Translations under genes and position numbers: made by a program
Shown here: positions 1,803 through 33,710 of the stretch, one piece after another
How positions within the stretch are numbered: position 1 is the first letter of the stretch
Layout of the letters: each line of letters begins with the position of its first letter
Source: a bacterium
GTDB lineage: Bacteria > Patescibacteriota > Saccharimonadia > Saccharimonadales > SZUA-47
Direction: 5' to 3'
DNA length: 42,994 nucleotides
Assembly: GCA_030430915.1 (NCBI GenBank)
Contig: JAUIKH010000003.1
Span: forward strand, 1 to 42,994
Notes under the pieces: generated by a model
What the model was told of the DNA's origin: nothing
The model's input: only the letters and a program-made list of their open reading frames with translations
Databases searched by the model: none

Positions 1803-3623
1803 TTACGATTTGGCGGCTCGTTTTCTTTTATTATGATCTAACTCTTTTTTTCGTAATCTCAAGTTTTCCGGTGTTACTTCTAATAATTCGTCGTTCTCAA
1901 TAAAATCTAGGCACTGTTCTAGGCTTAGTTTTGTGTATGGAGTCAACTGCACGACTCCATCAGAGCTAGAACTTCGCATATTAGTCAAATGTTTTTCTTT
2001 ACAAACATTAACCTCCAAATCATCACCGCGAGTGTTTAAGCCAACTATTTGGCCAGCGTAAACTGTTTGTCCAGCATCTACGTAGAGCTCGCCTCTACTT
2101 TCTGCATTTTGCAAGGCATACGGTGTAGTTGTTCCGTTTTCCCATGCTACTAATACTCCATTACGCAGCTGGTCTAATGAGCTACTTATCGGTGCGTATG
2201 AGTCCAGTAGAGTATTCATAATAATTGTGCCTTTTGTGGCTGTTAACAACGAGTTTCTAGCTCCTAGCAGCGATCTAGTTGGAATTTTATAAATTAGTTT
2301 AGTAATATTTTTGTCGGTGCTAAACTGGTCCACAAGTTCTGCTTTTCGGCGTCCAAATTCCATTTGCACAGAGCCCACGTGTTCAGCTGGAATTTCCACA
2401 ATTACTTCTTCTACCGGTTCTTTTTCTTGGCCATCTATAGTTTGAGTTACAACTTGAGGTCTACCTACTTCGAATTCAAATCCTTCACGCCTCATGGTTT
2501 CTATCAAAACAGATAAATGTAACTCACCCCTACCAGCAACCAAAAAGCCAATTCCTTGTTCCGTTATCTCTAACCCAACATTTGTTTCTAATTCTTTTTT
2601 CAACCTTTCACCAATTTGTCTAGATGTGTTAAATTCTGCCTCCTTACCTTTAAGCGGACTCGTATTAGGACCCAAATATATTTGTAAAGTTGGTTTTTCT
2701 ACTTCTATTGATGGCAAAGCTTCAGGGTTATCAAGGCTAGTGATCGTGTCACCTATTTTGGCATTAGGCAGACCAGTCACAGAGACAATATCACCTGCAA
2801 CTGCGCTGTCTACCTCAATAAATTTTAAGCCAATTGTTCGATAGATTTTATCTATTTTGCCCTTGTCTATTTGGCTATCATGACATAGAGATACAGGAGA
2901 ATTCTTGCTGACTTTACCCCGCTCTACTCTACCAACAGCATATTTTCCTTGAAAACTATCATATCTAAGCGATGAAACAAGCATCTGTAAATCACCTTCT
3001 GTATCAACATTTGGCCGGCTAACATCTTTAATAATAGACTCAAAAATTACTGTTAAATCTGCGTTCTCATTGATATTTTTTGGGAACTCGCTCCAAGCTT
3101 TGGATTCTCTACCTATAGCGTAATAAATTGGATAATGTAACTGATCTTCGTGTATAGCTAGTTCTAAAAATAGATTGTCTAATTCATCTTTTACTTCATT
3201 AACACGGGCAGCTGGTTTATCAATTTTGTTTATAACGACTATAGGTTTTAGTTCAAGCTGCAAAGCCTTACTGAGCACGAATTTGGTTTGAGGCATTGGG
3301 CCTTCTTGAGCATCAACGACTAAAATGCAGCCATCTGCCATTCTTAGTGTACGTTCAACTTCACCTGAAAAATCTGCATGTCCTGGGGTGTCAATTATAT
3401 TAATCCGATAGTCCTTCCAGTCTACGGCGGTAATTTTGGCTGTTATTGTAATACCACGCTCTTTTTCTTGATCTCCACTGTCCATTATTAATTCTTGACT
3501 CATTTCGGCCTGGTTACTTCTAAAAGTATTAGATAGCTTTAATAAGCCATCAACTAACGTTGTTTTACCATGGTCAACATGAGCAATTATCGCAATGTTG
3601 CGAATATTTTCATTCTCTTTCAT
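1803..3623 (-). CDS. typA: Ribosome-associated GTPase TypA/BipA
   Basis: Translational GTPase related to EF-G and LepA that binds the 70S ribosome and is linked to stress adaptation and ribosome assembly. The 606 residues match the usual length. Visible motifs are G1 AHVDHGKTT, switch [10 protein letters not shown]3 DTPGHADF and G4 NKIDKP (132-137). The G5 position, usually ASA in this family, reads YAIGRES near 168, so the Ser-Ala is not conserved. The C-terminal domain includes the [10 protein letters not shown] and [10 protein letters not shown] segments. The ATG at 3623 has no Shine-Dalgarno; an extended -10 box lies 11 bases upstream. It is divergent from the glycosyltransferase operon. 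Confidence 0.95.
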
Positions 3624-28729: not shown

Positions 28730-29914
28730 TTACTTGGTAATTTTAGTAACTACTCCAGCACCTACAGTCCGTCCGCCTTCACGGATGGCGAATCGTAAAC
28801 CTTGATCCATAGCAATTGGAGCAAGAAGTTTTACCTTAAACGTGACTGTGTCACCAGGCATAACCATTTCTTTATCAGCAGGAAGCTCAACCTCACCAGT
28901 TACGTCAGTTGTTCTGAAGTAAAACTGTGGTTTGTAGCCCTTAAAGAATGGTGTGTGTCTACCGCCTTCTTCTTTTGTAAGTACATAAACTTCTGCATCA
29001 AACTCTGTATGAGGTGTTATTGTTCCTGGCTTTGCTAGAACTTGTCCACGTTCTATATCATCACGTTCAATTCCACGAAGCAAAATACCAGCGTTATCTC
29101 CAGATTGACCTTGATCTAAAGATTTTTTGAAGGCTTCAATACCTGTAACTACTGATTTTTTAGTGTCTCTGATTCCGACAATTTCTACTTCATCATTAAC
29201 TTTGATGATTCCAGTTTCAATACGTCCAGTTGCTACTGTTCCACGTCCTTTGATTGAGAATACATCTTCTATAGGCATTAGGAAATCTTTATCAAGCTCT
29301 CTTTTCGGCTCTGGAATGTAATCATCCATAGCTTTAATAAGTTCCATAATACTTTCTTGATACTTATCATCACCTTCAAGAGCTTTTAGTGCTGAACCTT
29401 TGATTATTGGTGCGTTATCACCATCAAATTCGTACTTAGATAATAGTTCTCTTACGTCCATTTCAACAAGCTCAACTAGTTCTTCGTCTGCCATATCCAT
29501 TTTATTTAGGAATACAACAATTTTTGGAACGCCTACTTGTTTTGCTAGCAATACGTGTTCTCTAGTCTGTGGCATAGGGCCATCAGCAGCTGAGACCACC
29601 AAAATAGCTCCGTCCACTTGAGCCGCGCCTGTGATCATGTTTTTAACATAGTCTGCGTGACCAGGCATATCTACGTGAGCGTAGTGTCTGCTGTCTGATT
29701 CATATTCTTGGTGAGAAGTTGCAATAGTTATACCGCGAGCTTTCTCTTCTGGTGCTTTATCAATTGCATCAAATGCAACTGCTTTATTTACGTCGCTTGG
29801 AAGCTTTTTAGCCAAAGTAGCTGTAATAGCTGCTGTTAATGTTGTTTTACCGTGGTCGACGTGACCCATTGTACCAACATTTACGTGTGGCTTGCTTCTA
29901 TCAAAATCTGCCAT
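28730..29914 (-). CDS. tuf: Elongation factor Tu, cysteine-free
   Basis: Delivers aminoacyl-tRNA to the ribosomal A site as a GTP complex. The 394 residues are standard. G1 is GHVDHGKTT, switch [15 protein letters not shown]3 DMPGHADY (82-89), G4 NKMD (137-140) and G5 GSAL. Two positions that are Cys in most EF-Tu (DCPGH and NKCD) are both Met, and no cysteine occurs in the whole protein. The start has TAGGAG 6 bases upstream. It has its own strong promoter and terminator, so it is a monocistronic unit after fusA-orf77. Confidence 0.98.
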
Positions 29915-30318: not shown

Positions 30319-32406
30319 TTACTTTGAATTTTGAGCAATTATTGCTTCCGCTACGTTATTTGGCACATCTGCATAGTGATCTAATTCCATAGATGAGCTA
30401 GCCCTACCCTGCGTCATTGACCTTAAGTTTGTGGTGTAACCAAACATTTCTCCCAATGGTACAAAAGCAGTTATTTCTTTGACATTGGCAGGAAGATCTT
30501 CCATGGTTTCAACACGTCCACGTTTAGCATTAAGATCGCCGATTACGTCTCCCATAAATTCTTCTGGAGTTACTGCTACGACTTTCATGACAGGTTCCAA
30601 AATAACAGGAGAAGCTTGTTTTACTCCAGATTGTAGAGCCATTGAACCTGCAACTTTAAAGGCCATTTCTGAAGAGTCAACATCATGGTATGAGCCATCA
30701 TAAAGTTCTGCTTTAATATCTACCACCGGATACCCAGCCAAAACACCATTGCTCATAGCTTCGACTATTCCCTGCTGAACAGGCTTTATATATTCTTGAG
30801 GTACGGCACCACCTTTTATTGAATTTATAAACTCAAATCCTTTACCAGCTTCATTTTGAGATAGTCTTAACCAAACATCACCATACTGACCACGTCCACC
30901 AGACTGTTTAATGAATTTACCTTGTACTTCAACACCGTCTTTTCTGATTGTTTCACGATATGCTACCTGGGGTGCACCGATATTGGCCTCGACCTTAAAT
31001 TCTCGTTTCATTCTATCAACTAAAATTTCTAGATGAAGCTCACCCATTCCACTAATAACTGTCTGGCCTGTTTCATCATCAACTTTTACTCTGAATGTTG
31101 GATCTTCTTCGGCTAATCTTTGTAATGCTATGCTCATTTTTTCTTGATCAGATTTAGTCTTTGGCTCAATAGCAATGCTTACAGGAGGTTCAGGAAAGTC
31201 AATAGACTCTAAAACAATTGTGTTGTTTGGATCACACAAAGTATTTCCTGTTGTAGTCTTTTTCAAACCCACAATAGCAGCAATATCACCAGCTTCGACT
31301 TCTTGCACTTCTTCACGTTTATCTGCTTGCATTCTAACAATACGCCCAATACGCTCTTTTTCACCATTAGAACTATTTACTACATAAGACCCAGCTTTTA
31401 GTACGCCTGAATAAACTCTGAAATATGCCAGTTTTCCAACAAATGGATCAGATGTGATCTTGAAAGCTAGACCGGATAGTGGCTCATCAACTGATGGTTT
31501 TCTCTCGATTTTGTCTCCAGATTTAGGGTGTTCACCCCATGTTGAGCCTCGATCTACGGGACTTGGCATTAACTCATTGATTAGGTCTAATACTTTTTCA
31601 ACAATCACTCCACGACCATCGCCACCGGTAACAGCAAAAAACTTACCGCTTAAGACTGCAGAACGAATAGCTTGCTTTATATCATCTTCACTAAGACCTT
31701 CTTCGCCTTCTTCAAGATATTTTTCTAAATACTTTTCATCTTCTGCAACAGCATTTTCAATCAAAAGACTGCGATAACGTGCAGCTTTTTCTTTCATGTC
31801 TTCAGGTATTTCTCCTTCAACAAGCTCTTTATCAGCAAAATCTTTATAGGTGTAAGCTTTCATATTTACTAGATCAATAACACCATTAATACTTTGCTCA
31901 AAACCAATTGGTAGGTGAATTGGGAAAGCTGCTTTTGTAAGTCTATTGTGAATACTATCTAGTGACGCGTAGAAATCACCACCTGTTTGGTTAATTTTAT
32001 TTATAAAGCAAATTCTAGGTACTTCATATTTATTCGCTTGACGCCAAACGGTTTCAGACTGTGATTCAACACCCATTTTACCGTCGAATACAACAACGGC
32101 ACCATCAAGTACACGCAATGACCTTTCGACTTCAACAGTGAAATCAATGTGACCAGGTGTATCAATAATGTTTATCTGATGTTCTTTCCAATAACAAGTT
32201 ACAGCAGCTGATACGATAGTAATACCTCGTTCACGCTCTTGAGCCATCCAGTCTGTAGTTGTCTCTCCTTCATGAACTGCGCCGATTTTGTGGCTTAATC
32301 CCGTTCTATATAGAATTCCTTCAGTAGTAGTGGTTTTACCAGCATCTATATGAGCTATAATCCCAATGTTTCTAATTTTTCCTAGTGGTGTTTTCTTTCC
32401 TGCCAT
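30319..32406 (-). CDS. fusA: Elongation factor G with altered guanine-recognition motifs
   Basis: Translocase GTPase, 695 residues with all five domains. G1 AHIDAGKTT, switch [10 protein letters not shown] and G3 DTPGHIDF are intact. G4, normally NKMD, reads NKIN at 136-139 (codon AAC for the usual Asp). The G5 Ser-Ala (usual CGSA) reads TGGDG at 260-264. Domain II-V sequence is normal ([48 protein letters not shown]). It is in the canonical str operon position, so it is presumably the working EF-G. Sequencing error could explain the single-base NKIN change but not both sites. Confidence 0.96.
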
Positions 32407-32407
32407 A

Positions 32408-32692
32408 TTATCTTTCTGAATTAATTAATATTTCGTTAGCTATATCTATTATATTATCTCTATCAATATTTTTTGCTGGCTCTCCTAATGCATACTTAGA
32501 AAATCTATTTTCATAATGACGCATTAGTAACCCGGACGGTAAATAAACTAGTCTTAAAGCCATATGACCAAGCGCTGCGATAGGTGAAGCTGGTCCATAA
32601 TAGAGTGTTTCTTGGATGCCATCGTGTCTATTAAAATTTTGTGCAAATCTCGAAGCAAGTCTTTCTGCCTTTTTATCAAATTCATCAACCAT
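32408..32692 (-). CDS. Hypothetical protein between rpsG and fusA
   Basis: The 94 residues from the ATG at 32692 start [16 protein letters not shown] and include [20 protein letters not shown], a hydrophobic [15 protein letters not shown] segment and an acidic helical end ([15 protein letters not shown]). It begins 10 bases after the rpsG stop and ends 1 base before fusA, so it is embedded in the str operon. A longer ORF from 32797 would overlap rpsG by 95 bases. No Shine-Dalgarno is evident and no family is recognised. Confidence 0.65.
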
Positions 32693-32702
32693 GAAAATAT
32701 GT

Positions 32703-33179
32703 CTATCTCGCAAAGTGAGCAAAGGCTCGGTTAGACTCTGCCATCTTATGCGTATCTTCTTTTTTCTTGAAGGCTGTACCTGTCTCATTGTAAGCATCAG
32801 CCAGTTCTTGAGCTATTCTCTCACTCATTGGCATACCTTTTTTAGACCTTGCGGCAGCTACAAACCACATCATTGTAAGATGTTTTTGTCTTTGACCTTT
32901 AACTTCAAAAGGTATTTGATAGTTAGCTCCACCTACTCTTCGAGACCTAGTTTCCATATAAGGAGTAACATTCTTGATAGCTTTATCAAAAACTTCTAAA
33001 GGATTATCACTTTTTACTTTTTTTGCTGCACTTTCCATGGCATCGTAAACGATTCGTTCTGCTAATTGTTTTTTACCGTTTAGCATTACTCTATTAATTA
33101 GTCTTTGGACCATTTCTGAGTTGTATTTTCTATCAGGTAATTTTGGTCGAACTAAAGCTTTTGTAGTTTTCCTAGGCAT
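32703..33179 (-). CDS. rpsG: 30S ribosomal protein uS7
   Basis: Head-organising 30S protein, 158 residues. MPRKTTKALVRPKLPDRKYN at the start, INRVMLNGKKQLAERIVYDA, GGANYQIPFEV and the C-terminal KKKEDTHKMAESNRAFAHFA are diagnostic. It lies 2 bases after rpsL as in the str operon. Confidence 0.98.
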   Translation of the reverse strand: MPRKTTKALVRPKLPDRKYNSEMVQRLINRVMLNGKKQLAERIVYDAMESAAKKVKSDNPLEVFDKAIKNVTPYMETRSRRVGGANYQIPFEVKGQRQKHLTMMWFVAAARSKKGMPMSERIAQELADAYNETGTAFKKKEDTHKMAESNRAFAHFAR

Positions 33180-33181
33180 TT

Positions 33182-33595
33182 TTATTTACCGTCCTTCTTA
33201 GTGCCATATTTTGAACGGCCTCTTTTACGTCCTTCTACACCTTGAAGGTCCAATGAACCTCTAACAACATGGTAACGAACACCCGGTAGATCTTTAACTC
33301 TTCCGCCTCTAATTAGCACTACAGCATGCTCTTGTAAATTATGGCCTTCGCCACCAATATAAGCCCATACTTCGTAGCCGTTATTTAAACGAACACGAGC
33401 TACTTTACGTAGTGCTGAGTTAGGTTTTTTAGGAGTTTTAGTTGTAACTTTTATGCATACACCTCTTTTTAACGGAGAAGCTTTGTCATAGTTTGTTGTG
33501 TTTAGATTGTTCACCACCTTATGCAGGGCTGGTGACTTACTTTTTGGTTTAGCTGATTTTCTTGGCTTTCTAACCAATTGATTAATTGTTGGCAT
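33182..33595 (-). CDS. rpsL: 30S ribosomal protein uS12
   Basis: Decoding-centre protein, 137 residues from the ATG at 33595 ([14 protein letters not shown]), which has AAAGGA about 5 bases upstream and matches the family N-terminus. The ORF extends to 33631 but those residues are unconserved. Decoding loops [14 protein letters not shown] and [20 protein letters not shown] and the [10 protein letters not shown] segment are intact. The 115-base gap from rpoC holds a weak extended -10 (TGGAATAAT) but no terminator. Confidence 0.97.
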
Positions 33596-33710
33596 AAATT
33601 CCTTTCTTAGTTTTGCAGTTTTCTGCTTCATGGGTCCAGTGCCTTATGCCTAGTACTAGATTATTCCACGGCTCGAACTGCATTTAAATTAATACTTTAT
33701 TTTAACAGAT

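Follow-up and report, generated by a model that had tools for sequence, protein, structure and literature searches.

The EF-G (elongation factor G) encoded in a Saccharibacteria genome carries Asn in place of the Asp of the G4 motif NKxD, and Asp at the first position of the G5 loop. NKxD is absent and the motif reads NKIN; the canonical G5 pair (S/T/A)-(A/S) is also absent, with Asp-Gly and a one-residue deletion instead. Among EF-Gs these two states went together, and we propose, with a probability of about 0.6, that the guanine-reading carboxylate has shifted from the G4 residue to its neighbour in G5, with GTP use kept. Judged from the sequences, the pocket looks rewired rather than broken; this is a known protein with a new variant pocket, not a new kind of protein. 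EF-G is near-universal, and in textbook accounts it is the NKxD aspartate that determines guanine specificity. Literature searches on EF-G guanine contacts and on the EF-G of Saccharibacteria and Patescibacteria retrieved no mention of the variant, and to judge by the open literature searched the Asn139/Asp263 form has apparently not been described.

The fusA gene, its product and its motifs

The window (the whole stretch of 42,994 nucleotides that was analysed) contains the following genes.

30319-32406, minus strand: fusA, EF-G, an ORF of 695 aa with five domains
28730-29914, minus strand: tuf, EF-Tu, with NKMD and GSAL both normal (an internal control)
32703-33179, minus strand: rpsG, a neighbour in the str operon
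33182-33631, minus strand: rpsL, a neighbour in the str operon

The gene order around fusA was rpoC-rpsL-rpsG-fusA-tuf-rpsJ, and the same order was found in four related loci (L015, L016, L026 and L027). This context bore out the first-pass annotation, which had called the gene the canonical str-operon copy and had suggested looking for a second EF-G gene in the genome. The host genome is 869 kb and 99.1% complete. A direct EF-G search of it found one full-length copy, and a GTP_EFTU search gave eight matches: EF-Tu, LepA, TypA, IF2 (two pieces), Der (two) and EF-G. A paralogue of the EFG2, spdEFG or Tet-protection kind was rejected, this being the single EF-G and lying inside the str operon.

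The fusA product matched the TIGR00484 equivalog model over residues 4-693 with 1021.5 bits (cut-off 659.4), and T. thermophilus EF-G (1dar) with 843 bits. Pfam models GTP_EFTU, EF-G_D2, EFG_III, EFG_IV and EFG_C were all matched, so that domains G, II, III, IV and V are all there. The EFG2 and Tet models scored below their own cut-offs on this protein. The best fold matches of its nucleotide-free AlphaFold model in Foldseek were EF-G structures; mean pLDDT was 83, and just 77 for the block 261-270. By these matches the product is a genuine translocase EF-G, with GTP binding and ribosome-stimulated GTP hydrolysis predicted.

The codons and alignments gave the following features within fusA.

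31990-32001, minus strand: G4, N136-K137-I138-N139 (Asn in place of the Asp of the consensus NKxD)
31615-31629, minus strand: G5 loop, T260-G-G-D-G264 (canonical C-G-S-A-L-K, which is one residue longer)
31618-31620, minus strand: Asp263, the first G5 position (Ser/Thr/Ala in NKxD-type EF-Gs); from covariation, the proposed relocated guanine-reading carboxylate
31612-31614, minus strand: Arg265, at the place of the Leu after Ser-Ala in canonical EF-G; invariant in the Asn type, proposed to stack on the base

The G4 codons read ttt ata AAT AAA ATT AAC caa aca ggt ggt (F134 I135 N136 K137 I138 N139 Q T G G), and the G5 codons acc ggt ggc GAT ggt CGT (T260 G G D263 G R265). The G1, G2 and G3 motifs were present ([19 protein letters not shown]), and the P-loop AHIDAGKT, switch I RGITI and G3 DTPGH were all canonical. 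Thus the altered G4 and G5 and the intact P-loop, switch I and G3, all of which had been noticed at first pass, were confirmed. The register of G5 had to be corrected: Ser-Ala had been equated with Gly262-Asp263, but alignment to about 240 EF-Gs placed Ser/Thr at Asp263 and Ala at Gly264, followed by a one-residue deletion. This register is fixed by EF-Gs with an indel-free CGDAL loop (see below), which aligns directly to CGSAL. NKxD is, on these sequences, a consensus feature dispensable for EF-G identity, because 110 other orthologues also lacked it.

Two other reading frames of the window were noted. An ORF of 129 aa (32408-32797, minus strand) lies between rpsG and fusA and overlaps the end of rpsG in another frame; no Pfam match was found for it and no match among 17 related loci, and it is probably spurious or very young. 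A TypA/BipA-like frame of 610 aa (3096-3611, minus strand) kept NKID at G4, and its apparent G5 region ([13 protein letters not shown]) contained no Ser-Ala; the TypA G5 may be another altered loop.

Covariation of G4 and G5 and its spread among relatives

We read the 80 best loci from GTDB genomes and then added Patescibacteria fusA genes from genome searches. Among these 80 loci, NKINxxGG together with GGDG-R was found in all Saccharibacteria and in five others (mostly labelled Patescibacteria). The remainder had NKxD with a non-Asp G5, except one locus (L077), and so did every non-Patescibacteria locus in the set. The Asn type (Asn at G4) was present in all 28 genomes sampled from the class of the window, Saccharibacteria (25 plus three held out), and in many other Patescibacteria, as expected for the lineage-specific state proposed at first pass. 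It had also been argued there that relatives with normal NKxD/SA would point to error or decay; none occurred among the close relatives, and such EF-Gs were found only in other lineages of Patescibacteria. Sequencing error, misassembly or a pseudogene was rejected as a practically negligible possibility, since the same states recurred in 28/28 genomes of the class with full-length open frames and an intact operon.

The 163 Patescibacteria fusA genes from genome searches comprised 93 of Asn type, 2 of Ala type and 68 of Asp type, a split that is not a phylum-wide frequency because the sample was enriched in relatives of the query. A pattern search with NKxNxxG[GA] matched in 126 of 287 genomes, part of the matches lying outside fusA.

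The fourth G4 residue was compared with the first G5 residue in 241 distinct EF-Gs. When G4 Asp was present (130 EF-Gs), G5 had Ser (87), Thr (35) or Ala (8) and never Asp. When it was absent (111 EF-Gs; 108 with Asn and 3 with Ala), G5 had Asp in 110, the pairs being Asn-Asp (107), Ala-Asp (3) and Asn-Asn (1). Thirty held-out EF-Gs fetched after the rule had been set all obeyed it (11 swapped and 19 canonical); 29 of them were blind, and one (G305) was chosen with its G5 pattern already known. Fisher's exact p was 1.5e-69, which is not a measure of evolutionary significance because the sequences are related by descent. On well supported branches there were 3-4 independent pairs, of which all or almost all ran as predicted, and a sign test needs more. 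Fixed in 28/28 genomes of the class and covarying at 110/111 versus 0/130, the G4/G5 pairing exceeds what chance would give in these sequences.

The sole exception (L202, genome G255, family f119) had NKLN and GGNA-R, with neither Asp. The G5 Asp is present in two members of its family (L272 and L275); its own state would thus be a late change or an assembly error.

The three Ala-type sequences came from two places in different parts of the tree. L077 had NKMAKMGA at G4 and CGDALANQG at G5; family f103 (L207 and L274) had NKLAK[LM]G and CGDALSNKG. Both had a G5 without deletion and retained the canonical Arg30/Tyr34 and the Leu after the G5 Ala, so that their pocket differed from the canonical one at two residues only, G4 Asp to Ala and G5 to Asp. 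Read from these residues, the G4/G5 swap occurs in its minimal form in the Ala type.

In Asn-type EF-Gs the NK of G4 was kept in 108/108, as was Arg265. The columns that discriminated strongly between the types (N139, D263, G264-I268, Q140, G261, K110-M111, I173 and D192) all fell within residues 30-271, in the G and G' domains, and none of the top 45 discriminating columns lay in domains II-V. We infer a joint remodelling of the base pocket and the region around it. In helix A, which follows the P-loop, Arg30 and Tyr34 are near-invariant among Asp-type EF-Gs; most of the Asn type lack these residues, and many of its members have lost both; in the fusA product (residues 30-34; 32305-32319, minus strand) Gly and Arg stand in their place.

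Proposed relocation of the carboxylate and other readings

The side chains of the G4 Asp and the G5 Ser are neighbours in Ras-like folds. We infer that guanine specificity is retained and that the Asp263 pocket makes the following contacts. The negative charge that reads guanine N1-H and N2-H would have passed from the fourth G4 residue (Asp to Asn) to the first G5 residue (Ser/Thr to Asp263). Asp263 would either contact the guanine edge directly or orient the amide of Asn139 with the carbonyl towards N1/N2. The O6 contact formerly made by Ala would fall to the main-chain NH of Gly264. The base would lie between Lys137 on one side and, probably, the invariant Arg265 on the other, where canonical EF-G has Leu, and GTP would still be the fuel. 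In the Ala type the G4 side chain has no hydrogen bond to offer; if N1/N2 are still read there, the G5 Asp is the obvious reader.

In a survey of guanine complexes (PMC11594714) the G4 Asp accepts N1-H and N2-H, and in most complexes a main-chain NH, that of the G5 Ala or of the residue after it, reads O6. It also reports that 20.5% of guanine-binding complexes lack NKxD and use Asp/Glu for N1/N2 (PMC11594714). These 'D/E plus' binders resemble the present EF-G in that an acid outside NKxD reads N1/N2; unlike it, they form a general structural category, in which the accessible text names no EF-G example (PMC11594714).

Several results supported the relocation: the covariation (110/111 versus 0/130, and 30/30 held out); the separate occurrence of G4 Ala with G5 Asp, without an indel, in L077 and f103; the strong constraint on the new residue set (NK and Arg265 in 108/108); and an intact P-loop, switch I, G3 and domains II-V with a score far over the equivalog cut-off. 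Canonical EF-G (TIGR00484; T. thermophilus 1dar, S. aureus 2xex) has the same five-domain build, P-loop, switch I and G3, the same Asn-Lys in G4, and likewise a single gene copy in the str operon. It differs in the G4 residue (Asp, here Asn), in the G5 segment (Ser/Thr-Ala-Leu, here Asp-Gly-(deletion)-Arg) and in many co-varying residues of the G and G' domains. The relocation is weakened by the lack of either Asp in L202, by the small number (3-4) of independent pairs, by SpoIVA, now an ATPase, which shows both the G4 and the G5 changes, and by Ras-like proteins, which G4 Asp to Asn alone turns to xanthine (PMC7952092).

In the same genome NKxD was combined with a Ser-Ala G5 in EF-Tu, LepA and IF2; the G4 Asp was also kept by TypA and by both domains of Der. 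As EF-Tu, LepA, IF2, TypA and Der all retain the G4 Asp, the double change was confined to EF-G among the GTPases read. By the same residues the cell would still make ordinary guanine-reading GTPases; with the G4 Asp kept in EF-Tu, LepA, IF2 and TypA, it is predicted to use GTP in translation.

EF-G requires no exchange factor, which favours a relaxed recognition, in which weak guanine binding or the acceptance of several purines (XTP, ITP) would be tolerated through loading on the ribosome and high GTP. Loss of both motifs with relaxed or altered recognition had been the first-pass interpretation, and in Ras-type proteins G4 Asp to Asn indeed ends guanine specificity and favours xanthine (PMC7952092). 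Relaxation predicts drift at G4 and G5, however, and instead the new combination was fixed and covaried with G5 across the phylum. The xanthosine-preferring Asp-to-Asn mutants of EF-Tu and Ras have the identical G4 change; they are laboratory single mutants with a normal G5, whereas the present change is natural and coupled to a G5 Asp. The matched G5 Asp and the conserved pocket thus speak against independent loss of the two motifs, and relaxed or altered recognition, no longer the leading reading, is rather unlikely. The compensation elsewhere that had been raised as a possibility is suggested by the gain of the G5 Asp.

A switch of specificity is quite improbable. Asn139 would donate to adenine N1 and Asp263 accept from the N6 amino group, which is chemically possible on hydrogen-bond logic, and translocation would run on ATP or on either purine. 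SpoIVA, a TRAFAC GTPase, became an ATPase in the same direction, by loss of the G4 Asp and gain of an acidic G5 residue, and Era was converted by NSxR plus SAE (PMC7952092). In SpoIVA, of another family, the G4 Asp is replaced by N among others, the G5 Ser is often D or N, and loss of the G4 Lys/Asp with SxE at G5 gave ATP preference (PMC7952092). The decisive SpoIVA features are absent from Asn-type EF-Gs: the G4 Asp is lost, but 108/108 retain the G4 Lys that SpoIVA has lost, and two after the G5 Ser position, where an acidic residue favoured ATP in SpoIVA, an invariant Arg of opposite charge is found. In the Ala-type lineages a Leu is found two after the G5 Asp, and no G4 side chain is available to pair with adenine N1. 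YchF/Ola1, a P-loop protein associated with the ribosome, likewise has an altered fourth residue in G4 (NxxE) and prefers ATP (PMC8779481, PMC8138138); unlike the present EF-G it keeps a G4 acid as Glu and has lost the Lys, and the accessible part of PMC8779481 describes no G5 swap. As for ribosome-stimulated use of ATP by EF-G, we know of no precedent. If the ATP reading were true, the energy currency of the core translation cycle would have been naturally changed, via Asn139/Asp263/Arg265, in Saccharibacteria and other Patescibacteria.

A textbook guanine determinant has been replaced in a large part of a phylum and apparently compensated at an adjacent loop in at least three separate lineages, and the natural swap offers a ready-made double-mutant cycle for guanine choice in G proteins. 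It is directly testable whether base choice was re-encoded with the same fuel or the fuel of translocation was altered in these reduced bacteria. NKxD alone is unsafe ground for calling such GTPases dead or promiscuous.

Evolutionary history of the Asn type

In a G-domain tree without the motif columns, the Asn type formed one clade (support 96), so a single event is possible. One ancestral event might accordingly have carried both changes by chance at functionally unlinked sites, the pair being a phylogenetic marker only; this is very unlikely, as the same two changes occurred separately in the Ala-type lineages and the tree of domains II-V scattered the Asn type, with a single clade rejected (AU p 7.6e-5). 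In the full-length tree a single Asn-type clade was not rejected (AU p 0.144), and in a G-domain tree without the type-discriminating columns the Asn type was scattered again. The sequences suggest either G-domain recombination between lineages or the same multi-residue solution arising repeatedly. A plain return of the Asn type to the Asp type is unlikely, because the deleted residue and the canonical loop would need restoring.

One family (f15; L189-L191 and L194), with NKLNLIGA and GGDN-RT, grouped firmly by its domains II-V with Asp-type EF-Gs (L196, L201 and L203). For the G domain, grouping with these neighbours was not rejected (p 0.34), and the family is a candidate for G-domain exchange or parallel remodelling.
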